IMG/VR virus record: IMGVR_UViG_3300021976_000015
Span: 1-58,156 of that record
Source of the DNA: a virus
DNA length: 58,156 nucleotides
Strand: one strand, 5' to 3'
The position numbers and the translations under genes are program-made. Positions 1-57,286 of the stretch are shown piece after piece. The notes beneath the pieces are model-generated. The model was not told the DNA's origin and ran no database searches. It worked only from the letters and a program-made list of their open reading frames with translations. Each line of letters starts with the position of its first letter. Position 1 is the stretch's first letter.

Positions 1-222
1 GAACGCGACTACTTCCGAGTCAACCTCGACCCGGACGCCCACCGTGACGTACTGCCAGGCCTTCTCGTGGAATGCCCTGACGGTGATTCCGTCGTACGTG
101 TCGAAATCGCCTGGTGACGTGTCGTTGTCCTCGGACATGGTCCATTCCAGGATCACGCTCGGAACGTTGGTGTTTTCACTCTCGGTGTCAACGACCACTC
201 GGCCGTCCTCGGGCAGGAACAT
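1..222 (-). CDS. Hypothetical protein, 3' end outside window
   Basis: Open frame from an ATG at 222 running off the left edge (74 codons visible). The start is fixed by a strong GGAGGTCACC ribosome binding site just before the ATG. The visible part is acidic and begins MFLPEDGRVVVDTESE; I do not recognise the family. It is the last visible cistron of the minus-strand array and lies 46 nt after the hammerhead at 269-324. Confidence 0.75.
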   Translation of the reverse strand, partial: MFLPEDGRVVVDTESENTNVPSVILEWTMSEDNDTSPGDFDTYDGITVRAFHEKAWQYVTVGVRVEVDSEVVAF

Positions 223-268
223 GGTGACCTCCATGTAGCGGTGGTAAGGGGTCTGAGAGGCACGCTGT

Positions 269-324
269 GGACTCGTCAGCGGGTGACTGACACCCGGACA
301 CCCCCGGCACGGGGTGTTTCGTCC
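269..324 (-). ncRNA. Hammerhead ribozyme 1 (type II)
   Basis: Read on the minus strand. Stem II strands are 321-324 (GGAC) and 269-272 (GTCC), enclosing GAAA (317-320), stem III (300-304 with 311-315 plus the 299-316 pair), GTC (297-299), stem I (280-285 with 291-296, 5-nt loop) and CTGACGA (273-279). All core nucleotides of the hammerhead family are present. The expected cut is between 297 and 296. Entry and exit are through stem II, hence type II. The G of the upstream stop codon TAG is the first base of stem II. Confidence 0.93.
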
Positions 325-851
325 TAGACGGAGTAGACGACATACCGACCGTCGGGAAGTTCAAACTTCTCGTGGTGGTGCGGTTGGTTGTAATCGAACA
401 GGTCCGAACGGAATTCGGTCTCATCTACCTCGCCGTCGTCACCAAGTGCACCCTGATCGATCATGAAATCGGCGAATGCGTCTTCCGAGTCGTACACGCC
501 CTGGTACTGGTTGTTGAGGAAGTCGGTGAACCCCTTCACCAGGTCAGGGTTACCGCTCGTGCCGAATTCGTACGCGGCCTTGAGGTACTCCGGCTTCCAC
601 GAAGACGGGGACCCGTAGTAGTCCTCACCAGGTAGCGGAATCAGGGCGTTCACGTAGTCCAGGATTTGGTCGCGGTCATCTCCCGCTTGCCATTCCTCTA
701 CCTCCGTGTCAGACCATTCCACTGAGTACTCATCGAACAACGCGGCAACGGCATTGATCCATGCCGTCACGGTGTCGTCGTCTGTGGTGTCCTCGGGGTG
801 TAGTACCCGGAAGCGGGTAAGCGCGTCCGGATGAACGACGGGATCGAACAT
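324..851 (-). CDS. ArdA-like antirestriction protein (probable)
   Basis: 175 aa, acidic. The C-terminal half resembles ArdA-type antirestriction proteins, which are DNA mimics that occupy type I restriction enzymes: a YQGVYDSEDAFADFMID segment (about residues 114-130) followed by LFDY near the C-terminus and a final GRYVVYSV strand. The N-terminal region (EYSVEWSDTEVEEWQ) also fits. The start has a GGAGGTCAACC site. The stop TAG overlaps the following ribozyme by one base. The assignment is by pattern only; a divergent acidic early protein of another family is the alternative. Confidence 0.5.
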   Translation of the reverse strand: MFDPVVHPDALTRFRVLHPEDTTDDDTVTAWINAVAALFDEYSVEWSDTEVEEWQAGDDRDQILDYVNALIPLPGEDYYGSPSSWKPEYLKAAYEFGTSGNPDLVKGFTDFLNNQYQGVYDSEDAFADFMIDQGALGDDGEVDETEFRSDLFDYNQPHHHEKFELPDGRYVVYSV

Positions 852-874
852 GGTTGACCTCCGTATAGAAATGG

Positions 875-930
875 GGACTCATCAGGGCACTCACCTAAGT
901 GCCGACGGGACATCAGGTCCCGTTTCGTCC
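875..930 (-). ncRNA. Hammerhead ribozyme 2 (type II)
   Basis: Stem II 927-930/875-878; GAAA 923-926; stem III 907-910 with 918-921 plus the 906-922 pair; GTC 904-906; stem I 886-890 with 899-903 (8-nt loop, longer than in most copies); CTGATGA 879-885. Predicted cut between 904 and 903. It sits 2 nt after the upstream gene's TGA and 23 nt before the next ATG. Confidence 0.92.
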
Positions 931-932
931 TG

Positions 933-1247
933 TCAGGAGTTGTCGTAATAGCGACCGACAACGACATGGTCGCTATCGGTGCCGCCGTACTCATCGCGGA
1001 CGTATCGAATCAGTACCGCTGAGAATGCGGAATCGGCGGAGTATCCGACCCACCCGGTCAGGGAGGGTTGCTGTTCGGTGACGCGTTCGAACTCGCCCAT
1101 GTCGTACGTCCAGTCGTCGTACCGGAAGAACGATGCGTCTTCCTGTCCACCATTGGCACTCAGGTAGGCGAACTCTTCGCGCTCTGTCTCCGAAAGGTCC
1201 GACCATGTCAAGACCTCACGCTCTACGTTGTCGCTTGTGATTGTCAT
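933..1247 (-). CDS. Hypothetical acidic early protein
   Basis: 104 aa from the ATG at 1247, chosen because GGAGGTCAACCCCG precedes it; an upstream in-frame ATG at 1307 would run through ribozyme 3. Rich in Asp, Glu and Tyr, with WSDLSETEREEF near residue 15 and FFRYDDWTYDMGEF around residues 40-53. No catalytic motif seen and the family is not recognised. It is an isolated cistron with a hammerhead on each side. Confidence 0.78.
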   Translation of the reverse strand: MTITSDNVEREVLTWSDLSETEREEFAYLSANGGQEDASFFRYDDWTYDMGEFERVTEQQPSLTGWVGYSADSAFSAVLIRYVRDEYGGTDSDHVVVGRYYDNS

Positions 1248-1269
1248 CGGGGTTGACCTCCAACTAGGG

Positions 1270-1322
1270 GGACTCATCAGGACCGGCATGACCGATCGAC
1301 GCGGCATGGCCGCGTTTCGTCC
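1270..1322 (-). ncRNA. Hammerhead ribozyme 3 (type II)
   Basis: Stem II 1319-1322/1270-1273; GAAA 1315-1318; stem III 1301-1304 with 1310-1313 plus the 1300-1314 pair; GTC 1298-1300; stem I 1281-1286 with 1292-1297, with one U-G wobble in the RNA and a 5-nt loop; CTGATGA 1274-1280. Predicted cut between 1298 and 1297. The last base of the upstream TAG is the first base of the ribozyme. Confidence 0.92.
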
Positions 1323-1483
1323 TAGGTAGTTTTCATATCGGCGAAATGGTCGGCGAGGAAGAACCCGTCATGTGGAGTCCATCCACACCAACACTCGGCA
1401 GGGATACCGCGAGCGAGGGTGGCGGGATTGACCTCGTGAATGCCAGAGCACAACCCACAGTCGTGCTCTGTGGTCTCAGGCAT
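1322..1483 (-). CDS. Small cysteine-containing protein (possible zinc ribbon)
   Basis: 53 aa from the ATG at 1483, which overlaps the stop of the preceding gene by 8 nt and so suggests translational coupling; a longer frame to 1531 would overlap that gene extensively. CGLC near residue 9 and CWC near residue 32, with histidines, could bind a metal. Family unknown. Its TAG abuts ribozyme 3. Confidence 0.65.
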   Translation of the reverse strand: MPETTEHDCGLCSGIHEVNPATLARGIPAECWCGWTPHDGFFLADHFADMKTT

Positions 1484-1652
1484 CCTTGCGCGCTCGGTGC
1501 TTGCCACCCTTGCTAGCCCTCTGAGTGCCACCCTCAGCCCTCTTGCGACTGGCGGGGGTACCCGACATCCGGTAGGCGAGGTAGGCAGCGTCGGTCTGGC
1601 CGCTAGGGGTGTCCACGTAGCGGATCGAACGGAACCAATCGAGCACGGACAT
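1476..1652 (-). CDS. Small basic hypothetical protein
   Basis: 58 aa (begins MSVLDWFRSIRYVDTPSG), start at 1652 with a GAAAGG site 8-10 nt upstream. The C-terminal third is strongly basic (RKRAEGGTQRASKGGKHRAR), suggesting nucleic-acid binding, which is inferred from charge only. It is co-transcribed, without a ribozyme between, with the genes at 1702-2121 and 1322-1483. Confidence 0.62.
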   Translation of the reverse strand: MSVLDWFRSIRYVDTPSGQTDAAYLAYRMSGTPASRKRAEGGTQRASKGGKHRARKDA

Positions 1653-1701
1653 GGCGAACCTTTCGGGATGGTGAGGCGGAGTGACGTTCGGGATGTTCGG
1701 G

Positions 1702-2121
1702 TCAGCGGTCAGCGTCGATCTCATCGATATTGGTCAGGGTGATGTAGTACGAATAGCCCTGCCGCGTGACGGACACCAGGAACGTGTCGCCGTGCAGTTC
1801 CACAAGGTCACCATTCGCGACATTCGCGGTTGGGGTCGCCTTGTCAGGATCGGGTGAGTCCGAAAGCACCGAGGACATCTCGAATGCGTACGCGTAGGGA
1901 CCAGACACGATCGGTCCACCCTGGACACGTCGCGAGTAACCAGTGGAATCGATGTACCCCACCATGTGGCGCCCATAGGCACCCGCGACAGTGAGGTACA
2001 TGGTTCCCTCACCATCCCAATGCCCACGGTCGCGGGAAGTGTTGTCGTCCCAATAGCGGGACCGATTGAGAGGCACCCGCACACGGGTTGGGATGCGCAG
2101 TTCGGTAGTCGTCTCGGGCAT
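1702..2121 (-). CDS. Hypothetical protein
   Basis: 139 aa from the ATG at 2121, chosen by the GGAGGTCACC site; the in-frame extension to 2301 would span ribozyme 4 and reads as low-complexity basic sequence. Tyr/Gly/Val-rich with likely beta structure; no motif recognised. First gene of a three-gene segment bounded by ribozymes 4 and 3. Confidence 0.75.
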   Translation of the reverse strand: MPETTTELRIPTRVRVPLNRSRYWDDNTSRDRGHWDGEGTMYLTVAGAYGRHMVGYIDSTGYSRRVQGGPIVSGPYAYAFEMSSVLSDSPDPDKATPTANVANGDLVELHGDTFLVSVTRQGYSYYITLTNIDEIDADR

Positions 2122-2149
2122 GGTGACCTCCGGGTAGAGCTTCTGATTA

Positions 2150-2205
2150 GGACTCGTCAGCACGGCTACATACCGTGGACGGGGCGAGTGCACCCCGTTT
2201 CGTCC
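2150..2205 (-). ncRNA. Hammerhead ribozyme 4 (type II)
   Basis: Stem II 2202-2205/2150-2153; GAAA 2198-2201; stem III 2181-2184 with 2193-2196 plus the 2180-2197 pair; GTC 2178-2180; stem I 2161-2165 with 2173-2177 (7-nt loop); CTGACGA 2154-2160. Predicted cut between 2178 and 2177. The upstream TAG ends one base before the ribozyme. Confidence 0.92.
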
Positions 2206-2206
2206 G

Positions 2207-2659
2207 CTACTCGGTGTCGTCGTCGGTCTCTTCCTCCTCGTCGTCCTCTTCCTCCTCGTCTTCGTTCTCCAGGTCTTTGTAGTCCTGCTCTGCCTGGCCA
2301 AGAAGCTGCCCTGTCAGGTCATCGGCCGCGTAGAAGAGAACCGTTCCGACACCATCCGTGGTGAGTTCGGGTGGGTCTTCCATCTGACCTTCGTAGTGGT
2401 ACAGGGCCAGGTCTACGAAGACCTGCCAGCGCTCGTGTGTGGGAATCGGGACGGCACTGTCGGCGATTTCGGACGACTCGATTTCCTTGGTGTCGGTCCG
2501 CTCTGCCACTGCCGAAACCACGCGGTCACGGATGTCCAGAAGGAATTCCGCGCCGGGGGACGTCATACTCTCCGGGTACGACGCACCGTCAAGCATTCGG
2601 TAGAGGTCATCGGCGTCGTACTTGGAGATTTCAGCGGTGTTGTACATGGCGTAAGACAT
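2207..2659 (-). CDS. Hypothetical acidic protein
   Basis: 150 aa from the ATG at 2659 (GGAGG lies 10 nt upstream); an ATG four codons later is possible. The body is mostly alpha-helical by composition. The C-terminal tail is almost entirely Glu and Asp (about 20 acidic residues), as in DNA-mimic or histone-like-binding phage proteins, but no function can be assigned. Single cistron between ribozymes 5 and 4. Confidence 0.75.
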   Translation of the reverse strand: MSYAMYNTAEISKYDADDLYRMLDGASYPESMTSPGAEFLLDIRDRVVSAVAERTDTKEIESSEIADSAVPIPTHERWQVFVDLALYHYEGQMEDPPELTTDGVGTVLFYAADDLTGQLLGQAEQDYKDLENEDEEEEDDEEEETDDDTE

Positions 2660-2683
2660 GGGGTTGTGACCTCCGTATAGGGG

Positions 2684-2737
2684 GGACTCATCAGGCCACG
2701 CGTTACGTGGCGACACCCGCGAAGGGGTGTTTCGTCC
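2684..2737 (-). ncRNA. Hammerhead ribozyme 5 (type II)
   Basis: Stem II 2734-2737/2684-2687; GAAA 2730-2733; stem III 2715-2718 with 2725-2728 plus the 2714-2729 pair; GTC 2712-2714; stem I 2695-2700 with 2706-2711 (5-nt loop); CTGATGA 2688-2694. Predicted cut between 2712 and 2711. It begins 2 nt after the upstream TGA. Confidence 0.93.
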
Positions 2738-2739
2738 TG

Positions 2740-3012
2740 TCAGTAGTAGTTATCCGGCGGGTAGTGGCCAGGTCCGTAGCAGAGGGACGCGGACAATCCG
2801 TGCTCGCACGTCGGGTAGAGGTACTCGGACAGTTCCTGGTGATCCGGGTAGAGATCCGACACCGAATCGATGACGTGACCGGGACGATCGTTCAGGAACG
2901 CGATGGCCATCGTGTCCGCGTTCGGACCTTCGAAGATGACCTTGTACGACCCCTCACTCAGGGGTGAGGTGACGGACAGGATGACGGGCGTGTGCGTGGT
3001 GGTATCGGGCAT
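2740..3012 (-). CDS. Hypothetical protein with C-terminal Cys/His motif
   Basis: 90 aa from the ATG at 3012 (site GGAGGTCACACC). The C-terminus carries a CEHGLSASLCYGPGHYP motif: two cysteines and two histidines spaced like a small metal-binding knuckle. I have a general impression that similar endings occur in other actinophage early proteins, but no function is known to me. Single cistron between ribozymes 6 and 5. Confidence 0.75.
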   Translation of the reverse strand: MPDTTTHTPVILSVTSPLSEGSYKVIFEGPNADTMAIAFLNDRPGHVIDSVSDLYPDHQELSEYLYPTCEHGLSASLCYGPGHYPPDNYY

Positions 3013-3053
3013 GGTGTGACCTCCCATAGAGCGGACTGGTGAAGCGGACTTGT

Positions 3054-3105
3054 GGACTCGTCAGGGTTGGAGATACCAACCGACGCGCCTAAGCGCGTTT
3101 CGTCC
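3054..3105 (-). ncRNA. Hammerhead ribozyme 6 (type II)
   Basis: Stem II 3102-3105/3054-3057; GAAA 3098-3101; stem III 3085-3088 with 3093-3096 (4-nt loop) plus the 3084-3097 pair; GTC 3082-3084; stem I 3065-3070 with 3076-3081 (5-nt loop); CTGACGA 3058-3064. Predicted cut between 3082 and 3081. The upstream TAG shares its last base with stem II. Confidence 0.93.
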
Positions 3106-3302
3106 TAGGCAGGGATGACATCCATGTAATTGGGTGCCACCTTCAGGGTCCGTTTGGACCGATCCATCATCACGTGCACGTACTTGGTTCCGAGCTTGAC
3201 GACGACGCCAAACCGGTCACCTCGCATCCATGCATCGAGACCGGGGTGCAACTCCACCCTTTCCCCCACGGTGTACTGGTTTGTCTTTTTGCGCGTGGTC
3301 AT
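3105..3302 (-). CDS. Small SH3/KOW-like protein
   Basis: 65 aa from the ATG at 3302 (GAAAGGGA site upstream); the much longer in-frame extension is a shadow of other genes. VGERVELHPGLDAWMRGDRF followed by GVVVKLG and VHVMMDRS fits a small five-strand SH3/KOW-like barrel of the kind that binds nucleic acid or protein. Its ATG overlaps the stop of the preceding gene (ATGA). Confidence 0.68.
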   Translation of the reverse strand: MTTRKKTNQYTVGERVELHPGLDAWMRGDRFGVVVKLGTKYVHVMMDRSKRTLKVAPNYMDVIPA

Positions 3303-3562
3303 TTCAAATCCCTTTCTTTGGGTGTGTGGCCGATGAGAACGTCCGGGCAGTACCCGAGTGCGGTGTGGAAGACGAAGCGCAAGCCGTGCTCCCGGTCCCA
3401 CACGTACCCCTGGAGAACACTCCAGTCCGCCATCTCGTTCGGTGTGGTCTCTACCAGGCCAGAGCAGATCTCCTGAGAGACAGCCGCGCTCGGTGAGGTA
3501 GGCGCGTTGTAATCGGTATGGGGCACGGTCACCACAAGGGCCACCGCGATCAGGGCATGCAA
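3299..3562 (-). CDS. Hypothetical protein with hydrophobic N-terminus
   Basis: 87 aa, starting at 3562 with a GGAAGG site about 10 nt upstream. The first 15 residues (MHALIAVALVVTVPH) are hydrophobic and could be a short signal or anchor, though no basic n-region precedes them. Two cysteines follow (EICSG, GYCPD). Overlaps the next gene by 4 nt. Function unknown. Confidence 0.65.
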   Translation of the reverse strand: MHALIAVALVVTVPHTDYNAPTSPSAAVSQEICSGLVETTPNEMADWSVLQGYVWDREHGLRFVFHTALGYCPDVLIGHTPKERDLK

Positions 3563-3596
3563 GGGGTACCTTCCGACTAGGGGGCAGGGGCTTCAG

Positions 3597-3609
3597 GGCC
3601 GCTACGGCC
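3597..3609 (-). other. Short intergenic hairpin
   Basis: In the 71-nt gap between two minus-strand genes, GGCCG (3597-3601) and CGGCC (3605-3609) form a 5-bp hairpin with a 3-nt loop. The gap has no hammerhead core. It may be a processing or stability element; weakly supported. Confidence 0.3.
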
Positions 3610-3633
3610 ATCTGAGGGGGTTGTGAGGTGAAC

Positions 3634-3825
3634 TCAGGCGAGACGAGGAGTTGGGTTGCACGCGGGCACTCGGGTCTCGCTGTAGAAGTTCGTGAGAGTG
3701 AGCCATCCACTCGCCGAGATGTTGTCCGCCACGTGGGTGGCCAGCTTCTCATCGGTGTACGTCTCGGTGACGTCCCGACCCTCGTCGTCGCGGTAGTCGA
3801 CAAAGAACGTGGTGTATTCGGGCAT
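3634..3825 (-). CDS. Small hypothetical protein
   Basis: 63 aa from the ATG at 3825 (GGAGGTCACC site, 31 nt after ribozyme 7). Begins MPEYTTFFVDYRDDEGRDV; likely a mixed alpha/beta fold. An in-frame ORF to 4134 is rejected because it crosses the ribozyme and antisense-reads the next gene. Family unknown. Confidence 0.7.
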   Translation of the reverse strand: MPEYTTFFVDYRDDEGRDVTETYTDEKLATHVADNISASGWLTLTNFYSETRVPACNPTPRLA

Positions 3826-3856
3826 GGTGACCTCCCATAGAGCGGACTGGTAAGAC

Positions 3857-3910
3857 GGACTCATCAGGACACCCCATAGGTGCCGACACCCCAGGTGGGG
3901 TGTTTCGTCC
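3857..3910 (-). ncRNA. Hammerhead ribozyme 7 (type II)
   Basis: Stem II 3907-3910/3857-3860; GAAA 3903-3906; stem III 3888-3892 with 3897-3901 (4-nt loop) plus the 3887-3902 pair; GTC 3885-3887; stem I 3868-3873 with 3879-3884, one G-U wobble, 5-nt loop; CTGATGA 3861-3867. Predicted cut between 3885 and 3884. It begins directly after the upstream TAA. Confidence 0.93.
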
Positions 3911-4279
3911 TTACTCCTCGGCGTCGGACAGTTCGTACTCGGCTTCCGAGAGAATGTCCGCGAATGGTGTGAGAGCGACGTGATCCGCATTCGCCTCGTC
4001 ATCGGGGTCTTCCACCTCATCGGAGGCGTAGTAGGAGAGGAATCCGGCCGCGTCACGAAGCGCGCGATCGTGATCCACGTACGGGAGGTTGAGGGTGTGG
4101 TCTTTGTCGCCCACCCAGGACACGATCGGCTCACCCTCGGAACGGGTCAGGGTGACGCGGTAGGCCGCGTAGTGGTCACTCCAGTAGCCATCGGTGACGT
4201 GCCGGTCAAGGAACACACCGAGAATCAGGCCATCGTCCAGGTGGGCGATACGGCCATCGCGGGTGGTGGTGACGTTCAT
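3911..4279 (-). CDS. Hypothetical acidic protein
   Basis: 122 aa from the ATG at 4279 (GGAGGTCAACACC site, 22 nt after ribozyme 8). Contains RHVTDGYWSDHYAAYRVTLT and an acidic, helical C-terminus. No recognised domain. Single cistron between ribozymes 8 and 7. Confidence 0.75.
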   Translation of the reverse strand: MNVTTTRDGRIAHLDDGLILGVFLDRHVTDGYWSDHYAAYRVTLTRSEGEPIVSWVGDKDHTLNLPYVDHDRALRDAAGFLSYYASDEVEDPDDEANADHVALTPFADILSEAEYELSDAEE

Positions 4280-4301
4280 GGTGTTGACCTCCAGGTAGAA
4301 C

Positions 4302-4357
4302 GGACTCATCAGGCCGCGTATGACGCGACGACGCGGGAATGCACCCGCGTTTCGTCC
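4302..4357 (-). ncRNA. Hammerhead ribozyme 8 (type II)
   Basis: Stem II 4354-4357/4302-4305; GAAA 4350-4353; stem III 4333-4337 with 4344-4348 (6-nt loop) plus the 4332-4349 pair; GTC 4330-4332; stem I 4313-4318 with 4324-4329, one U-G wobble, 5-nt loop; CTGATGA 4306-4312. Predicted cut between 4330 and 4329. First of the array in transcription order; the upstream TGA ends 10 nt before it. Confidence 0.93.
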
Positions 4358-4367
4358 TAGGGGTAGA

Positions 4368-4541
4368 TCAGACCGGAACGTTGGTAGAGATGAGGGAAGG
4401 GGATGCCGCGCAACGAAGTGCACGAGCAAGTACCCGTTGTGCCTTCTCGGCGGTGAGGAACCAACCGGAGTAGACGGTGCGTCCACCAACGCAGTCGGTC
4501 CAGCGGACGTAGTACGCGCTCTTGGGGCGGGTTGCGTTCAT
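4368..4541 (-). CDS. Small hypothetical protein, first gene of the minus-strand array
   Basis: 57 aa from the ATG at 4541 with a GGAGGTCACC site. Begins MNATRPKSAYYVRWTDCVGG, then RTVYSGWFLTAEKAQ. Function unknown. The ribosome binding site, the downstream ribozyme and the position at the head of the array support it as real. It is the first translated gene after the long non-coding region. Confidence 0.65.
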   Translation of the reverse strand: MNATRPKSAYYVRWTDCVGGRTVYSGWFLTAEKAQRVLARALRCAASPSLISTNVPV

Positions 4542-4563
4542 GGTGCGGTGACCTCCAACTAAC

Positions 4564-4583
4564 CCCCGACGTCTGTGTCGGGG
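4564..4583 (-). other. Leader hairpin before the array
   Basis: CCCCGAC/GTCGGGG, 7 bp with a 6-nt loop, lies between the tRNA-like element and the ribosome binding site of the first array gene. It has no T-run on the minus strand, so it looks more like a 5' stabilising or processing hairpin than a terminator. Confidence 0.5.
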
Positions 4584-4587
4584 AAAG

Positions 4588-4636
4588 TGCCCGTGTGCGG
4601 ATTCGAACCGCTACAAGCCAACTTCACTCACGGGCA
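4588..4636 (-). ncRNA. tRNA-like element lacking D and anticodon arms
   Basis: On the minus strand an 8-bp acceptor-like stem (TGCCCGTG at 4629-4636 with CACGGGCA at 4588-4595) encloses a T-arm with a canonical TTCGAAT loop (stem GCGG/CCGC, 4597-4611). Only 17 nt replace the D and anticodon arms; these could form a 3-bp hairpin. No CCA is encoded. It could be a degenerate tRNA, a processing signal cut by RNase P or RNase Z, or a tRNA-mimicking end. It is not a normal tRNA. Confidence 0.45.
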
Positions 4637-4639
4637 TGA

Positions 4640-5286
4640 CCTACTTACCAGTGCAAGGGATGCTGCCCTTTCGCCTCGCTAGGAATGCAGGTCATCACGG
4701 CAAGGTCGCACTGTTAGGGATTCGGCTACGCGCTTGGTCATGCCTGCCTACGTAAGAGAGCCGTTCTCACCACTTCCTAGTGGCCATGTTGTTGGATACG
4801 CCGCGAGTAAGTCACCAGGGCTTAGGACTGACAGTCCATCGTGAGCCGAGCTGGGTGGCCGCGCGTATGAGGTAAGCAAGTCAGGGGTCTAGGCATTTTT
4901 CGGCGTTAGCACCCGTCGCGATCGATCACCGCCACTCGCGTGGCCTTACGGGGGTTCCGGCGCTTGACTTGCTCTGTAGTTGTGGCCCCCATGTTCGGGA
5001 GCGGGTGGTGCAAGACCCAAGCTACAGCACTAGCGCTGTGTAAGAAGGCATATGACATCACACGTTCGGGTGAATGTAACCAGGACACAAGGGACGCGAA
5101 CGGACATCTTGTGCGTGGAGTGGCAGGTGGAGAGGAAGGGAACACGGCTTCTCAGCTATGGCCACAGCTACCCAAAGACACCCCCTAAACGATCACTCCA
5201 AGCGATCACTCAGAGGCCCATACGTGCAGGTCACGGTGTGTTCTGCACCTTGGTTTTCGGGACGGTAGGCAGTGCACCCCTAGATT
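4640..5286. other. Long non-coding stretch, possibly a structured RNA on the minus strand
   Basis: No convincing gene on either strand. On the minus strand 4640-4900 is rich in short hairpins: GGACTGTCAGTCC near 4830, CCACTAGGAAGTGG near 4775, and an ATGACCT/AGGTCAT pair joining 4689-4695 and 4636-4642. Direct repeats CGATCACTC (5190-5198, 5203-5211) and AAGACACCCC (near 5175 and 5295) occur further right. It may be the leader of the minus-strand array, or a stand-alone RNA. Confidence 0.4.
4906..4992 (-). pseudogene. Possible 5' remnant of an HNH endonuclease gene
   Basis: A 28-codon frame from the ATG at 4992 reads MGATTTEQVKRR and then TRVAVIDRDGC before TAA. The RVxVxxRDGxxC pattern is how many HNH nucleases begin their first metal-binding part, but the frame stops there and no HNH core follows in any frame. 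There is no clear ribosome binding site. A chance ORF is equally possible. Confidence 0.2.
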
Positions 5287-5530
5287 CCGCGACCAAGACA
5301 CCCCATCTCTACCTGGTTGGAAGGGGGGTAGGCGGGTTAGAACGTCGCGACCGGGGTCCCCTTTCCACACCAGTGGAAGTAGAGGAGATACCAGGTAGCC
5401 GGTAGACCCCAGTTGGATTTTCGCGACGTGGGGTTCCCCATCCGTAGTACAGGGGAGAGAGGGAGAGAGGAGAGGGGGAGGGAAGAGACAGGGTAGGTAG
5501 GGGGTAGAGGTAGAGGGTAGGTAGAACGAA
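5287..5530. other. Candidate packaging (cos/pac-like) region: repeats and polypurine tract
   Basis: Three related elements combine CGCGAC with a G/C block: 5287-5304, 5344-5361 (GGGGTCCCC) and 5420-5439 (GGGGTTCCCC). They are followed by an almost pure purine tract on the plus strand at about 5451-5525. Position directly upstream of a putative small terminase gene is typical of packaging sites. The function is inferred from position and repeat structure only. Confidence 0.35.
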
Positions 5531-5658
5531 GGTTTGTAGGTAGATTGGCTACGTATGAAGGATGGTTAGGTGTTTGCAGGGGTGCTTAGAATTGGATAGG
5601 GCTCTGACCTGCACAAAGACAAGGGCTTTGGTTTTAGGGTGTAACCAGGAGGGCGAAA

Positions 5659-6792
5659 ATGGCATTTTCAGCAATGGAAATTTTAGACCAAACAATGACC
5701 GATATGCAGGATTCTTTTGTCCAGAGTGGACAACTTTCGCAACAGTCCAGGGTGATCAACAAGCATGGGACGGCACGGATCACCAGCGGGAAGAAACCCA
5801 AGACGGTAAGTAAGGCCATCCACCCGTGGAGCAAGATCGAAGCCGTCTACGTGGAAGGTCTTCCAGAGACCCACAAAGATGGAAGAACGATCCTCAACTA
5901 CCCGAGTCACCAGGCGGTAGCGGACTTGTTCGCGATCAGTGTCGCGACAGTCCGGCAGAGGGCAGCACGAGAACAGTGGACAACCAGGCGAGAACAACAT
6001 CAGGCACAACTTGCCGCGCAGAGGCGACAGGAACGTCATCGGGAACTTGCTCAGTACGCCAGTGACATCGATGAGAAAGCCGTACATCTCAGTCGTACGG
6101 GGCTTTCCATCGTTCAGGCACGCATCTTGGAGCTTGCCGAGAAAGCCAAGGATCGCGAGATCTGGAAGGAAGACAAGCAACTCTGTGAAGCAAGCGGTAC
6201 ACGGTTCATCCGACCCGAACCCAAGCCGGTTGACGCGAGGGAACTTGACCAACTTGCCGCAGCCGCAACCAAGTGGCATGCGTTGGGTAGACAGGGTTTA
6301 GGCGATGACGTCACGAAGCTTCAGATAACCGGTCCAGACGGTGGACCCGTCCAAACCATTCATGCGCACATGGTCAAGGAAGACCCAGAACGCTTGTCAA
6401 AGGTCCTCGATGCCCTGAAGAGAAGCAACGTCCTCACTGCCCTCATGGGTATGGAGGAACCGATAGAAGCCGAACTTGTGGACGAGATCCCTTACACAGC
6501 GGCAATCGAAGTCATTCCCGACCCATACGAGCACATGACCCAAGAGAACGGGTACGACATCCAATCGGCAGATGCGGGGGTAGGTAGAGGAGAAGATCAG
6601 GGGGTAGGTAGAGGGGATGTCATTCTAGAAACCCCCTCAGATCAACCGAGAGCAATCAAGCACGTCATCCCACCCATTGACCCCAACCCCCTGGGGTTAA
6701 GTCCTCAGAATCAAGCTGAGAGGGATGTGGGGGTAGATACGGGGGTTAGAAGGGTGACCCCAACAAGACGCACGAGGAAGACGCGGGAGTAA
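5659..6792 (+). CDS. Putative terminase small subunit (HTH protein)
   Basis: 377 aa; an AGGAGGGCGAAA ribosome binding site precedes the ATG. Residues about 76-110 hold an HTH of the kind seen at the start of terminase small subunits (QAVADLFAISVATVRQRAAR, then EQW), followed by a Gln/Arg-rich helical stretch. The last 100 residues are low complexity and include GVGRG twice, encoded by a GGGGTAGGTAGAGG DNA repeat. A small terminase would recognise packaging sites and recruit the large subunit, encoded about 9.4 kb downstream. Alternatively another HTH regulator. The stop overlaps the next ATG (TAATG). Confidence 0.55.
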   Translation: MAFSAMEILDQTMTDMQDSFVQSGQLSQQSRVINKHGTARITSGKKPKTVSKAIHPWSKIEAVYVEGLPETHKDGRTILNYPSHQAVADLFAISVATVRQRAAREQWTTRREQHQAQLAAQRRQERHRELAQYASDIDEKAVHLSRTGLSIVQARILELAEKAKDREIWKEDKQLCEASGTRFIRPEPKPVDARELDQLAAAATKWHALGRQGLGDDVTKLQITGPDGGPVQTIHAHMVKEDPERLSKVLDALKRSNVLTALMGMEEPIEAELVDEIPYTAAIEVIPDPYEHMTQENGYDIQSADAGVGRGEDQGVGRGDVILETPSDQPRAIKHVIPPIDPNPLGLSPQNQAERDVGVDTGVRRVTPTRRTRKTRE

Positions 6793-18312: not shown

Positions 18313-20682
18313 ATGGCCTTCTGGTCCGACCTGTTCACCAAGGCAGGTAAGCCACACGTTCAGTTCGACGACCCTGTTTCCACTTCGGCCGTTGGCCACG
18401 TTGTTGGCAATGTCAGTACCGGCATCACAGGGTTGGGTATCGCCGACGACTTGTCGCGAGCGGTCAACACCCAAGAACGAGTCATCTACGTCTACCGGTG
18501 TGTGGACGCCATCGCATCTCGCGCCGCCACTATCCCCATCGTCGTCAAGAAGGACGGCAAGGGTGACGGGATGGAGCATGAAGACCCCGTCGTTCGCCTG
18601 CTGACCAAGCGGCCGAACACCTACGAGACGGCGACCCAGTTCAAGTACCGGTTGTCCAGCCAGCTCCTGTTGAGCACAAAGGGTGTCTTCGTTGAGGTCA
18701 TTCGCTCTGAGGCTGGGAAGGTCGTCGAGCTTCACCTTCTCCCCTCGGACAAAGTGGAGCCAATCCCAGATCGCCGTCGTTACGTCCAGGGGTTCCGCGT
18801 CTATGACCCTGAAAAGGGTTACGTGGATCTTCCTCCGGATCGTGTGGTGTGGATTCGTAGCAAGCCGCATCCTACGAATGTTTTCGCGCAACTAACCCCA
18901 CTCGTCGCAGCACACCTCGCGGCGGATACCGACTACATGGCGCGTCAGTTCAACCGCAACTTCCTACGCAACGATGGTCGTCCAGGAATGATCGTTGCCG
19001 TCGCAGGCGCGATGAACAACGAAGACCGTGACGCGTTGAGTGCCATGTTCAGCGGTGGGTACGCCCAAGCCGGAGTCACCAGGGTCATTGAGGGTGACCG
19101 GATCTCGGCAGTCGATCTCTCGGGAACGCCGCGTGACATTCAGTGGCAGGACGCATTGGAAGGAACCAAGCAAGACATCTTGCTTGCGTTCGGTGTTCCG
19201 GAAAGCCAGCTCGGTAACGCATCCGGAAGAACCTACGACAACGCCGACGCCGAAGAGGAGATGTTCTACAAGTCGACGATGGTCGATCACTGCAACTCGA
19301 TCGCCAACGCCTTCGACGTCCTCACTACTGGCGGTACCGAAGACGACCTGATCGTTGCCTACGACTGGAGCAAGATCGACGTACTCCAGCGTCAGGAACG
19401 AGCGCGTCACCAGAAGGCCTTCGAGGAGTTCAAGGAAGGCGCGATCACGATCGACGAGTACCGCGAGCTGACCGGTAAGGATGTCTTCGACGTCCCCGGC
19501 ACTCGCGTCCTATGGGTGAAGAACACCGGAGCAGTCGGTATCGGTCACAACTTCCTGGACACCGCCGAGGCAGCGCTTCTTGTCCCGGCAGGACAGAACG
19601 CCTTTGCCCTTCCTCCGGTAGAGGAAGAGAACCCGGCGATCACGCAGACCGAGTCCGATCGAGCGGTCAACGACGGAGTGTCCACGGCGGACAGGGACAC
19701 CGACGATCCCAACGCCGCCGCGAACGCCACCTTGCAGTCCAGTAGGCCCGCCGTGGGCGGTCGATCTGCCGATCGTGCACTGAGGTTGGTCAAGGAACTT
19801 CACAGGAATCCCGCGACTGGTGTCTTCGAGGAGACCAAGGGCGAGCTTCCTGGAGGGCAGCACCCAAAAGAGCTAGAGACAGAGACCAAGGCCGCGCGCA
19901 CGGTTCGATCAACCGTTCAACGTGAGGTCCGTTCTGCTGTCTCTACCTTGGTGCGTGGGTACAGCAGGATGGTCGAGCTTCGGTTCAAGGGCAACGCGAT
20001 CAGGAAGAACACCAGGTACTGGTCACCAGCGGGTACAGCAGCCCTGAACATCAACAAGATGGTCAACAAGTCGGTGGCGATGGCGAAGTTCGGCCAGGAC
20101 ATTCTTGATCTGGTGGAACCCATCGCGATCGATGCCGCCGAACGGTTGTCCTTGCGGTGGGGGAAGAACACCAACCGCGCGCAGTGGATCAACGACATCA
20201 AGCGAATCGTCGTGAACCAGATCGTGGACCAGGCCACGGTGTCCTTCGGTCGATACGTGGATTCTCTTCGCGACCAGATCACCGCCGTGGACATGGATCA
20301 GAGCGCGACCAGGGACGACATCAACAAGGCGATCTCGTCCTACACCTCCTCGAAAGAGAAGGCGTGGGTCCCCCAGTTCGCCGAATACGTCGCTTTCACC
20401 GTAGTTGAGGGTGCTGAAGCCGTCGCGGCACAGCATTTGGACAACTTGATGAAGGTGTGGAACTCCATGGATGACGATTCGGTGCGTCCCAGTCACTGGG
20501 TGATCGATGGTGAGGCCGTTGGAGTCCACGAAAAGTTCAAGGTGGGTGTGTTCCGGCTCGCTTTCCCGCGTGATCCGTCCGCTCCGTCGGTGGAAACCAT
20601 GGGATGCCGTTGTTTCCTGACCTATAGGCGCCCCAAAACCAACGAAAGTGCCGGGGTACCACCAAAAAGGCGGAGCGCGTGA
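18313..20682 (+). CDS. Portal protein fused to MuF-type minor head domain
   Basis: 789 aa, about 300 longer than a usual HK97-type portal. Residues about 20-430 read as portal (RCVDAIASRAATIPI; DRVVWIRSKPHP; GVPESQLGNASGRTYDNADA). After a linker, residues about 540-789 are helical and end with WVIDGEAVG, FPRDPSAP and ETMGCRCFLTY, the typical end of the MuF/Mu gp30-like domain. The portal forms the DNA channel; the MuF part is normally a separate minor capsid protein. GTGA overlap with the next gene. Confidence 0.9.
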   Translation: MAFWSDLFTKAGKPHVQFDDPVSTSAVGHVVGNVSTGITGLGIADDLSRAVNTQERVIYVYRCVDAIASRAATIPIVVKKDGKGDGMEHEDPVVRLLTKRPNTYETATQFKYRLSSQLLLSTKGVFVEVIRSEAGKVVELHLLPSDKVEPIPDRRRYVQGFRVYDPEKGYVDLPPDRVVWIRSKPHPTNVFAQLTPLVAAHLAADTDYMARQFNRNFLRNDGRPGMIVAVAGAMNNEDRDALSAMFSGGYAQAGVTRVIEGDRISAVDLSGTPRDIQWQDALEGTKQDILLAFGVPESQLGNASGRTYDNADAEEEMFYKSTMVDHCNSIANAFDVLTTGGTEDDLIVAYDWSKIDVLQRQERARHQKAFEEFKEGAITIDEYRELTGKDVFDVPGTRVLWVKNTGAVGIGHNFLDTAEAALLVPAGQNAFALPPVEEENPAITQTESDRAVNDGVSTADRDTDDPNAAANATLQSSRPAVGGRSADRALRLVKELHRNPATGVFEETKGELPGGQHPKELETETKAARTVRSTVQREVRSAVSTLVRGYSRMVELRFKGNAIRKNTRYWSPAGTAALNINKMVNKSVAMAKFGQDILDLVEPIAIDAAERLSLRWGKNTNRAQWINDIKRIVVNQIVDQATVSFGRYVDSLRDQITAVDMDQSATRDDINKAISSYTSSKEKAWVPQFAEYVAFTVVEGAEAVAAQHLDNLMKVWNSMDDDSVRPSHWVIDGEAVGVHEKFKVGVFRLAFPRDPSAPSVETMGCRCFLTYRRPKTNESAGVPPKRRSA

Positions 20683-21629
20683 TGGATTTGACCGAACTGA
20701 GGCACCGATTGACCACGTTGGCCGCGTCGGTGTCCTTCGATGGCAAAAGTGAGGCCCCGACCAGCTCCTCACCGCGTGATCACACCTTCGAACTGCTCGA
20801 TCTTGTCCATGCAGCCGTATTCGAGGGTGTCGGGATCAACGAAATGGCGTCCAAGGCCATGTCAGACCCCAACTACGCGTACTTACGACCCCAAGTGAGG
20901 GAGTTCATGGGCTTCACGAGCCCTTTCAAGGCCCCTGAGAGCCTCGTAGAGCCCTCAGACCAGGCCAAGTCCGTCCTCCACACCTTCACCGGGGCCATGA
21001 TCGCCCTGGTGCCCTCAGAGCGAGACATCGAGCGCCTGAAGAAGCACATCACGGAAGACCCAGACCAGCTCCACATGACGTTGTACTTCCTCGGCGAGGC
21101 AAACGAGTGGGACGACAACGCGCAGAAGGCGGTTGGGGTCCATATCGCAACGTTGAAGAGCATGTTCGCCGCTCAGAAGACGCGCGTTGCAGGCAGAGCC
21201 ATTTTCAACCCCACCGGAGAGACCCCGGCGGACGTGTTGATCCTCAATTCGCCCACCTTGATGGCCGTGAAGCAGGCGGTAACGGGTGCATTGGCGCGAT
21301 GTGGGTACCTGAACAAGCTGCCAGAGCAACACGAACCCTGGATTCCGCATTTGACCCTCGGGTACAGGGTCGAACAACCAGATCTTCCTGACGAGATCTT
21401 CACTGAGCCGATGCGTTTCGATCGAGTGCGGGTGTCTTTCGCGAGAGAACACATCGACATCCCTCTTGTAGGACATCCGGAGCCCGCTAGTTTCAATTCG
21501 TACGCGAAATTTGCAGATGTTGTGGGCGATGAAGAAGCCCAACGTGTCGTACTGGATACCAAAGCAGGTCTGGACGTTCCGCTGAGCTTCTACCGAGCAG
21601 CAGAGAAAGCGCGCAGAGGTAATCGATGA
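20682..21629 (+). CDS. 2H-type phosphoesterase (2'-5' RNA ligase-like)
   Basis: 315 aa from the ATG at 20682 (GTG one codon earlier is possible). Two H-x-T motifs define the 2H superfamily: LHMTLYFLG at about residues 130-138 and PHLTLGY at about 223-229. 2H enzymes open or hydrolyse 2',3'-cyclic phosphates and related 2'-5' bonds. The location between portal and capsid protease suggests it may be packaged or injected. The N-terminal 100 residues are extra. Overlaps the next gene by 4 nt. Confidence 0.82.
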   Translation: MDLTELRHRLTTLAASVSFDGKSEAPTSSSPRDHTFELLDLVHAAVFEGVGINEMASKAMSDPNYAYLRPQVREFMGFTSPFKAPESLVEPSDQAKSVLHTFTGAMIALVPSERDIERLKKHITEDPDQLHMTLYFLGEANEWDDNAQKAVGVHIATLKSMFAAQKTRVAGRAIFNPTGETPADVLILNSPTLMAVKQAVTGALARCGYLNKLPEQHEPWIPHLTLGYRVEQPDLPDEIFTEPMRFDRVRVSFAREHIDIPLVGHPEPASFNSYAKFADVVGDEEAQRVVLDTKAGLDVPLSFYRAAEKARRGNR

Positions 21630-52765: not shown

Positions 52766-52822
52766 ACGCACTGTCATCATCAACACGCCATTTGGCAATT
52801 CAAAAGCGACAAAGGAGTAGAA

Positions 52823-53608
52823 GTGGTTCGAACGACCCGAAAGGGTTTAGCCGTCCTGGCAGCGATCATCCTGATCCTCTCGGCGATCTTCCTGTTCGCG
52901 GGATCAGCGTCGGCGACAGATGAAGAGCCCACAGAGACCCCACCTGCACTCGTGTACGAGGTCACGCATTCAGCCGCGCTTGGCGAAGATTGCGGGACGG
53001 TGGTCATCACCGTCGTCAACGAAACCCCCTTCCCCTATGGGTGGGGATTCGCCGTGGGACCGAACGCAGGAGGTGCTGCTGGACTCCAGGGGCAGTTCGA
53101 GGTACCGGCAGGCGAGACAGCCGAACATGTGGTTCCCACTGCTGAGGACTCATTCGGCGGCGATGGGTTCGTGTCGTTCGGCCCGATCTATGGACCGGAG
53201 TTGGAGAAGCAGCCGCAGTGGAAGGCCATCGCCGTGATTACGGACTGTCTTCCTCCTGCCACCGAGGTTCCGACCGAAGATCCTCCCGCACCTTCAGATC
53301 CCCCTGTAGTCACCGTGGCGCCAACAAGTGTCGCGTCGGTGGATCTACTCAACTGTGCGGACTTCGGCACGCAGAAGGACGCTCAGGCCGTTCTCGACCA
53401 GGACCCAAGCGACCCCAACAAGCTCGACGGGAACAACGACGGTCTGGCGTGTAACGGGCGGTCCGGCGTGGACATGGTCAGCTCGACCAAGACTCTCGCG
53501 AACACCGGCACCGACACCGGGTTGCTCGTCGCGCTCGGTGCCGGTCTTCTGGTCGCGGGCGGTGGACTCCTCTTCCTAGTCCGGAAGAGCCGGGGAGCAC
53601 ACAAGTAA
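52823..53608 (+). CDS. Sortase-anchored surface protein with Excalibur domain
   Basis: 261 aa from GTG (AAAGGAGTAGAA site). Signal peptide at 1-32 (RKGLAVLAAIILILSAIFLF, then AGSASA); a beta domain (about 40-135); a Pro/Thr linker; an Excalibur calcium-binding motif at about 175-210 (NCADFG, DPSDPNKLDGNNDGLAC); and a C-terminal sorting signal LANTG (about 225-229), a hydrophobic span and RKSRGAHK. LAXTG is the class E sortase motif of Streptomyces. The product should be linked to the host cell wall. Confidence 0.85.
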   Translation: MVRTTRKGLAVLAAIILILSAIFLFAGSASATDEEPTETPPALVYEVTHSAALGEDCGTVVITVVNETPFPYGWGFAVGPNAGGAAGLQGQFEVPAGETAEHVVPTAEDSFGGDGFVSFGPIYGPELEKQPQWKAIAVITDCLPPATEVPTEDPPAPSDPPVVTVAPTSVASVDLLNCADFGTQKDAQAVLDQDPSDPNKLDGNNDGLACNGRSGVDMVSSTKTLANTGTDTGLLVALGAGLLVAGGGLLFLVRKSRGAHK

Positions 53609-53622
53609 GGAGGCGAACTTTC

Positions 53623-53655
53623 ATGGGTCACAAGCGTGGAGGCGGTCTCAACTAG
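53623..53655 (+). CDS. Possible 10-codon leader peptide
   Basis: AAGGAGGCGAACTTTC precedes ATG; the frame reads MGHKRGGGLN and stops 5 nt before the hairpin at 53661. A strong ribosome binding site for such a short frame suggests attenuation or a remnant. Confidence 0.3.
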   Translation: MGHKRGGGLN

Positions 53656-53660
53656 TAGTG

Positions 53661-53690
53661 AAGGGGCGCACCGAAAGATGTGCCCTTTCT
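53661..53690 (+). terminator. Terminator or attenuator hairpin
   Basis: AAGGGGCGCA (53661-53670) pairs with TGTGCCCTTT (53680-53688, with one bulge) and is followed by CTC. It separates the surface-protein gene from the small membrane genes. Confidence 0.55.
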
Positions 53691-53710
53691 CATCCCTGAA
53701 AGGAGAAAGG

Positions 53711-54289: not shown

Positions 54290-54478
54290 GTGGATAAGAG
54301 AGAACAGGCCAAGCAGATCTTGATCGGTCGGCTTCGCGCGTCGTACGTCGACGAATCCTGGGAGCTGGAGACCCTGGAGAAGGAGGCGGAGTGGATGCTC
54401 AAGATGATCGAGGAGACCTACTCCGCCGAGTACGTCGAAGCGACGTACGACGATTGGATCGCGAAAGAAGGGTCCTAG
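54290..54478 (+). CDS. Small acidic helical protein
   Basis: 62 aa from the GTG at 54290 (GGTGGAGGGAAG site). EQAKQILIGRLRASYVDESW and acidic helices. Unknown. Confidence 0.62.
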   Translation: MDKREQAKQILIGRLRASYVDESWELETLEKEAEWMLKMIEETYSAEYVEATYDDWIAKEGS

Positions 54479-54855: not shown

Positions 54856-54906
54856 TCTTCGCGATGTTCGACTTGAAGTTGTGGAAGCCGAGGACGTCAG
54901 CGCGAG

Positions 54907-55143
54907 GTGGGCGTCTACTACACCAACTCTGACGACACCGTCGTGTACGGCAGAGGACGTGGCGCGATGTGGGAGGCAGTCCACGCTGCTCGGGATTACC
55001 CGAACCGAAAAAGCCTCATGGTGAGTTTCCGCAAGACGGTTATCTACTTCCATGGTCCCCATCACACGTTCGAAGATTGGGCGCCGCTCGGCACCACGAT
55101 CGTCATCAAAGGCAAAACCGGAATCAAACCCAGAAAGGAGTAG
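54907..55143 (+). CDS. Hypothetical protein
   Basis: 78 aa from GTG, the first start after an in-frame stop at 54874; ribosome binding site is weak. VGVYYTNSDDTVVYGRGRG, then MVSFRKTVIYFHGPHH. A frame starting at ATG 54846 reads protein-like for 20 codons before this one begins, so a frameshift or short overlapping leader gene is possible. Confidence 0.55.
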   Translation: MGVYYTNSDDTVVYGRGRGAMWEAVHAARDYPNRKSLMVSFRKTVIYFHGPHHTFEDWAPLGTTIVIKGKTGIKPRKE

Positions 55144-57194: not shown

Positions 57195-57231
57195 GGAGGT
57201 CCGGTCACCACGACGGACCTCCGCTCTCTTT
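57195..57231 (+). terminator. Hairpin between ATPase and metallopeptidase-like gene
   Basis: GGAGGTCCG (57195-57203) pairs exactly with CGGACCTCC (57214-57222), then CTCTCTTTCTC. Possible partial terminator setting the ratio of the two products. Confidence 0.55.
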
Positions 57232-57286
57232 CTCAAAAGTCAACCTTTCATTCCGGATACAAAGCTAAAACGAGTAGGAGGAAATA

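Follow-up and report, generated by a model that had tools for sequence, protein, structure and literature searches.

Several hammerhead ribozymes clustered in prophages were described by Perreault et al. in 2011; they stood around single genes or short blocks of genes, and processing of the transcripts into single-gene messenger RNAs (mRNAs) was proposed as their role (PMC3088659). These arrays were active in vitro and one of them also in E. coli, and ArdA was the gene in the tested Agrobacterium array (PMC3088659). In the available part of a 2017 review, phage hammerheads are described as flanking small non-conserved open reading frames (ORFs), and their role is called open (PMC6155905). The hepatitis delta virus (HDV)-like theta ribozymes of gut phages are also self-cleaving, and the available text on them proposes a role in RNA processing and a link to transfer RNA (tRNA)-based recoding (PMC10879173). 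Here we analyze an array of eight type II hammerhead ribozymes on the minus strand of a metagenomic virus contig, the record IMGVR_UViG_3300021976_000015, whose whole stretch of 58,156 bases is called the window below.

Like the clusters of 2011, this array consists of several hammerheads, all on the same strand of a phage genome, flanking genes or short gene blocks. In so far as the available text describes those clusters, the present locus differs in having eight uniform copies with a common GGAC/GTCC stem II in one operon and tied to stop codons, and a pseudoknot reported for most type II hammerheads there was not enriched here (PMC3088659). The 2017 review matches our locus in genomic context and in the link to phages, whereas long arrays of a single type and overlap with stop codons are not described in its available part (PMC6155905). 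Theta ribozymes share with it only that they are self-cleaving ribozymes of phages; as far as the available text goes, they belong to another class and do not stand at cistron boundaries (PMC10879173). An initial sequence-only reading of the window had treated a tandem hammerhead array between the cistrons of an operon as having no known precedent. This claim fails in part, since the paper of 2011 had already reported clustered phage hammerheads and proposed this role for them (PMC3088659). Since those clusters were already known, the present array is an unusually long and regular case of a known kind. Retrozymes, which are non-autonomous retrotransposons of eukaryotes, have repeated non-coding units. 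Their units are flanked by hammerheads as well, whereas the units here are different phage genes. An assignment to a retrozyme or an HDV-like circular element was rejected because no near-identical non-coding repeat unit was present; the units differ in length and in their protein genes.

The eight complete ribozymes lie at the left end of the window amid a run of small genes (Table 1). Every copy reads GGAC GAAA-C...G-TC / stem I / CTGAYGA GTCC on the minus strand, and the invariant core (CUGANGA, GAAA and the cleavage triplet NUH) was present in 8 of 8. In all of them stem II is open and stems I and III are closed by loops, both by pairing and in the minimum-energy fold, and the minimum-energy structure of each isolated copy was the hammerhead fold at -22 to -26 kcal/mol. 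The core pattern CGAAAC-N9..30-GTC-N12..40-CTGANGAG matched eight times, whereas 100 dinucleotide shuffles gave 0.03 matches on average and never more than 1, and 1.1 Mb of reversed sequence contained no match to it. A covariance model was built from 63 hammerheads of other viral contigs only, with the eight copies excluded. It scored the eight at 50.9 to 66.2 bits (E at most 5.5e-14), while the runner-up place in the window reached 12.5 bits. No ninth copy was found in the 58 kb by the pattern, a relaxed finder, Rfam or the covariance model. The sequence-only reading had named these same eight minus-strand blocks, and pattern, covariance model and fold agree that they are complete type II hammerheads; its cut sites (296, 903, 1297, 2177, 2711, 3081, 3884 and 4329) are identical with the predicted ones that we derived.

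Table 1. Ribozymes and genes of the array in order of minus-strand transcription. Cut sites are predicted; SD, Shine-Dalgarno sequence; nt, nucleotides; aa, amino acids; scores are from the covariance model.
Feature	Positions	Strand	Cut site	Details	Score (bits)
Leader gene (57 aa)	4368..4541	-		ATG at 4541; SD GGAGGT; no ribozyme upstream	
Ribozyme 8	4302..4357	-	4330/4329	TGA stop of first gene 10 nt before	58.4
Unit 2: 122-aa gene	3911..4279	-		SD GGAGGT; downstream of ribozyme 8	
Ribozyme 7	3857..3910	-	3885/3884	TAA stop 3913-3911 directly adjoining	61.7
Unit 3: three genes	3105..3825	-		3634-3825 (SD GGAGGT), 3299-3562, 3105-3302 (phrog_5546); flanked by ribozymes 7 and 6	
Ribozyme 6	3054..3105	-	3082/3081	Shares a base with TAG stop 3107-3105	64.0
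Unit 4: 90-aa gene	2740..3012	-		SD GGAGGT	
Ribozyme 5	2684..2737	-	2712/2711	TGA stop 2 nt before	66.2
Unit 5: 150-aa gene	2207..2659	-		SD GGAGGT; phrog_4239, function unknown	
Ribozyme 4	2150..2205	-	2178/2177	TAG stop 1 nt before; sole copy with C instead of A before stem II	50.9
Unit 6: three genes	1322..2121	-		1702-2121 (SD GGAGGT), 1476-1652, 1322-1483; flanked by ribozymes 4 and 3	
Ribozyme 3	1270..1322	-	1298/1297	Shares a base with TAG stop 1324-1322	64.8
Unit 7: 104-aa gene	933..1247	-		SD GGAGGT; phrog_1845, function unknown	
Ribozyme 2	875..930	-	904/903	TGA stop 935-933 is 2 nt before	59.0
Unit 8: 175-aa gene	324..851	-		SD GGAGGT	
Ribozyme 1	269..324	-	297/296	G of TAG stop 326-324 doubles as first G of stem II	62.7
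Unit 9: partial gene	1..222	-		SD GGAGGT; extends past contig end	

The Rfam type II model, which the sequence-only reading had pointed to as a check, shares the core and the permuted topology with our copies. When RF02276 (Hammerhead_II) was run on the window, six of the eight copies were matched at 23 to 31.5 bits, but all eight fell under the 37-bit gathering score and none was reported at that cut-off. On 12 related loci with about 65 copies, a single copy passed it. By Rfam's own rule the eight copies are not members of RF02276, though they have the type II architecture.

The sequences of stems I and III differ from copy to copy, yet they pair in each, as the sequence-only reading had stated. 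Eleven of the 16 stem pairs vary on both sides among the eight copies, and 99.2% of the cells are paired compared with 71% after shuffling. The covariation score was 0.790 against 0.206 for shuffled stems, with slid partners giving at most 0.18, and the 63 viral relatives scored 0.840 against 0.165. Changed stem pairs were also compared at five sites where Streptomyces phages and close contigs have orthologous ribozymes: 15 states were compensatory on both sides, 2 were one-sided G-U changes and none was a broken pair, by a finder that demands pairing and would let badly broken stems escape. Despite this demand, the orthologous sites are stronger evidence of selection on the fold than the copies within one genome.

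Each of the eight ribozymes lies between one gene's stop codon and the following gene's Shine-Dalgarno sequence. One base is common to stop codon and ribozyme in copies 1, 3 and 6, and in copy 7 the two are directly adjacent; the distance from the stop codon is 1 nt in copy 4, 2 nt in copies 2 and 5, and 10 nt in copy 8. The motif GGAGGT precedes all nine unit-opening genes, i.e., the leader gene, which has no ribozyme upstream, and the eight genes led by a ribozyme, whereas the four unit-internal genes (starts near 3562, 3302, 1652 and 1483) have neither GGAGGT nor a ribozyme. Thus the ribozymes delimit nine units holding one to three genes each, rather than each single gene. The predicted 5' end of the downstream message lies 50-74 nt ahead of its start codon. 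Since the gene of unit 9 runs off the contig, the array may continue further. A scan limited to sigma-70-like sites and simple terminators detected neither a sigma-70-like promoter at positions 1-6000 nor, within the array, a terminator-like site on the minus strand.

The genes elsewhere in the window include terminase, portal, capsid, tape-measure, DnaG-type primase and DnaB-type helicase genes. The sequence-only reading had called the array genes early genes, a label that the analysis does not directly support; they are small and their functions are unknown. Two leader segments around Shine-Dalgarno sequences, 3016-3050 and 3827-3861, are 91% identical over 35 nt, a sign of duplication within the array. 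Upstream of the leader gene, the minus strand at 4560-4622 carries a tRNA-like 3' half (GCGGTTCGAATCCGC) followed by a CCCCGAC/GTCGGGG hairpin. Neither ARAGORN nor Rfam at default settings found a tRNA or transfer-messenger RNA upstream of the array, and ARAGORN at lax settings gave too many candidates to be meaningful.

Arrays of this kind are widespread in phages. Since the pattern seeds were biased to a GGAC stem II, the cross-phage counts given here describe that subclass and are lower bounds. The strict pattern was found in at least 119 stretches of viral contigs, whereas a slightly narrower pattern occurred in only 26 stretches of bacterial and archaeal genomes, which amounted to 257 billion bases. 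Among the matches listed, the relaxed finder recovered 209 hammerheads in 113 viral loci; all copies were on one strand in each of the 39 loci with two or more, an ORF stop codon ended within -10..+3 of stem II in 158 of 197 cases compared with 84 of 1045 random positions, a start codon with a Shine-Dalgarno sequence followed at a median of 24 nt downstream of the hammerhead, and the median spacing between copies was 625 nt. Whole contigs held up to 11, 10, 9 and 8 copies. Arrays of six to eight hammerheads, each in one region of hypothetical genes, were present in the Streptomyces phages PHTowN, Lizz, Gibson, Rooney, Dryad, phiRKBJ001, Yara and Wentworth, and the records of cultured Streptomyces phages with arrays are MT498053, MZ648036, MK305891, MZ648033, MT498037, MT936332, MH019215 and MH019216. 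No ribozyme was annotated in the stretches of these records that we examined. The eight predicted ribozymes of PHTowN are on the minus strand of MT498053.1 at 52783-52836, 53621-53695, 54295-54359, 54898-54964, 57217-57269, 58195-58250, 58558-58631 and 59601-59664. Across PHTowN genes 75 to 92, by our own count, a ribozyme stood in 8 of the 10 gaps longer than 50 nt and in none of the 7 tighter junctions.

The genes behind array ribozymes encode proteins with a median length of 104 aa, mostly unknown; among those that could be named are DUF932 (5 of 96) and helicases, as well as a DNA methyltransferase family and one ArdA. When two proteins of the present array were searched in viral contigs, no close relatives were found, and a terminase search returned one identical 7.9-kb contig, which lacks a hammerhead, together with distant relatives. 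No named phage near the window was found. On contig IMGVR_UViG_3300048837_000975 (G001) nine hammerheads are located at both ends of the record, so that they probably form a single array in a genome that is circular or permuted. Another locus (L034) carries a pair of hammerheads identical in sequence, at 2844-2896 and 3849-3901.

The stop codon is frequently part of the element. The base before stem II (position -1) is an A in 185 of 193 unique copies. The offset of the stop codon's end is 0 or +1 in 81 of the 193, and in 80 the conserved A belongs to the stop codon of the upstream gene, whereas only 3.4% of trials with random positions came that close to a stop. The A was retained in 59 of the 65 copies whose stop codon is 4 or more nt distant, which suggests that this base is a requirement of the ribozyme itself. 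The ribozyme is fused to the upstream stop codon, which doubles as the source of the A in those 80 copies. A tertiary contact between stems I and II is usual, though not universal, in hammerheads and is often a pseudoknot between loop I and the 3' tail. The pseudoknot of the published type II consensus was not enriched, occurring in 39 copies compared with 37.7 expected by shuffling the tails. Loop I prefers U-N-A-N-G and starts with U in 116 of 119 five-nt loops. With this preference and no enrichment of the pseudoknot, a contact between loop I and the A at -1, unlike the published one, is plausible.

Gene order varies around conserved ribozymes. In PHTowN, Lizz and Rooney, a ribozyme with a TGCGGC stem I is followed by a gene of family f20, a second ribozyme and f2. 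In phiRKBJ001, Wentworth and the contigs L070 and L040, f2 comes directly after the same ribozyme, and in Dryad f6 comes after it, the ORF calls in this comparison being approximate. The breakpoint is the common CTGAYGAGTCC, the ribozyme is complete in each arrangement, and exactly one ribozyme is retained by the same gene order both with and without one cassette. Gene cassettes therefore appear to be swapped at the ribozyme core, and either gain or loss of a cassette may lie behind these arrangements.

We propose, with a probability of about 0.7, that the locus is one minus-strand transcription unit of small accessory genes in which type II hammerheads, and not promoters or terminators, set the cistron boundaries. 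From the observed fold, conservation, placement and recurrence we infer cutting in the cell and a benefit from it. Each ribozyme would fold once the RNA polymerase has passed and would cut after GUC, so that eight cuts would release nine transcript units. The upstream message would extend about 30 nt beyond its stop codon and terminate in the stem III hairpin, bearing a 2',3'-cyclic phosphate, and the downstream message would start with a 5'-hydroxyl and the stem I hairpin and carry its own strong Shine-Dalgarno sequence. Such RNA ends are poor substrates for several bacterial ribonucleases. The benefit may be independent stability and translation of each cistron, and cassettes may also be exchanged at the ribozyme core with processing preserved. 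A precedent for activity is the prophage array of three ribozymes that was cut in vitro and in E. coli (PMC3088659).

Several points weigh against the ribozymes as the markers of cistron boundaries. The sequence-only reading had put a hammerhead in every intergenic block and had the polycistronic RNA cut itself into separate cistrons. The eight blocks are real, and their placement between stop codon and Shine-Dalgarno sequence fits such cutting and recurs in many phages, but four internal junctions (1476/1483, 1652/1702, 3299/3302 and 3562/3634) lack a ribozyme, and the units hold one to three genes. Two of these junctions are overlaps, and the other two are gaps of 49 and 71 nt. Stem II has just 4 base pairs and is seldom formed in energy models of longer context, which leave tertiary contacts out. 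In addition, a ribosome terminating at an abutting stop codon could block folding of the ribozyme.

The last point leads to one of three other explanations, which are not all mutually exclusive. Cutting may be gated by translation and occur only when the upstream gene is untranslated, so that the array would sense translation or adjust gene ratios. With the start of the ribozyme inside the stop codon or next to it, stem II and GAAA would be covered by a ribosome that terminates there, and the frequent supply of the -1 A by the stop codon fits this explanation, as does the persistence of that A where the stop is distant, i.e., a need of the ribozyme doubled by the stop. However, tight packing behind a gene may just save space, and most of stem III and the cut site are outside the reach of a terminating ribosome. 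We consider gating unlikely. Similarly doubtful is a more far-reaching version, in which phages use a distinct, Rfam-invisible and stop-codon-fused type II subclass as the standard cistron ends of modular accessory-gene arrays, with the terminating ribosome controlling folding and cutting both reporting and setting the translation of each gene. It is very unlikely that the hammerheads persist mainly as conserved blocks for cassette movement, as recombination boundaries or selfish repeats with RNA cutting secondary. The three different genes downstream of the TGCGGC ribozyme, with their break in CTGAYGAGTCC, and the duplicated leader segments of the window are in line with such a role, but the stems turn over while pairing is kept, which indicates protection of the RNA fold and not of DNA homology, and sequence-similar copies with broken stems or cores are rare here.

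The ribozymes could also make circular RNAs, if neighboring copies excised gene-length RNAs that were then circularized by self-ligation or an RNA ligase. Two serial cuts would leave 5'-hydroxyl and cyclic-phosphate ends, the substrates of RtcB, and the array contig G001 has an RNA_ligase (PF09414) gene at 103086-103577. Among phage genes, host ligases apart, RtcB was found in none of seven array phages, this genome included, and RNA_ligase was absent from six of the seven. Neither of the two was found in this genome, and a search with PF09511 (T4 Rnl1) gave no signal, its own controls giving none either. Circles were sought by Perreault et al. and none was found (PMC3088659). We therefore regard circle formation as very improbable. 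In the window, 20679-21629 (plus strand) carries an RNA ligase label from PHROG, which we discounted because only the C-terminal part of an 891-aa profile is matched and because the gene's neighbors are head genes; the label looks wrong. This gene also matches a head maturation protease family.

As far as the literature searched shows, what is new here are the widespread arrays of 6-11 copies, including those of cultured Streptomyces phages, the stop-codon fusion and the apparent swapping of cassettes; no report of the subclass, the fusion, the exchange of cassettes or the presence in cultured Streptomyces phages was found in that literature, most subscription journals being outside it. Since the Rfam cut-off hides nearly all copies, the abundance of these ribozymes in phages is probably underestimated. 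The role of prokaryotic and phage hammerheads has been in question since 2011, and the present array is long and regular enough for a sharp test of their part in mRNA separation. Because arrays are present in cultured Streptomyces phages, RNA from infected cells can be examined directly.

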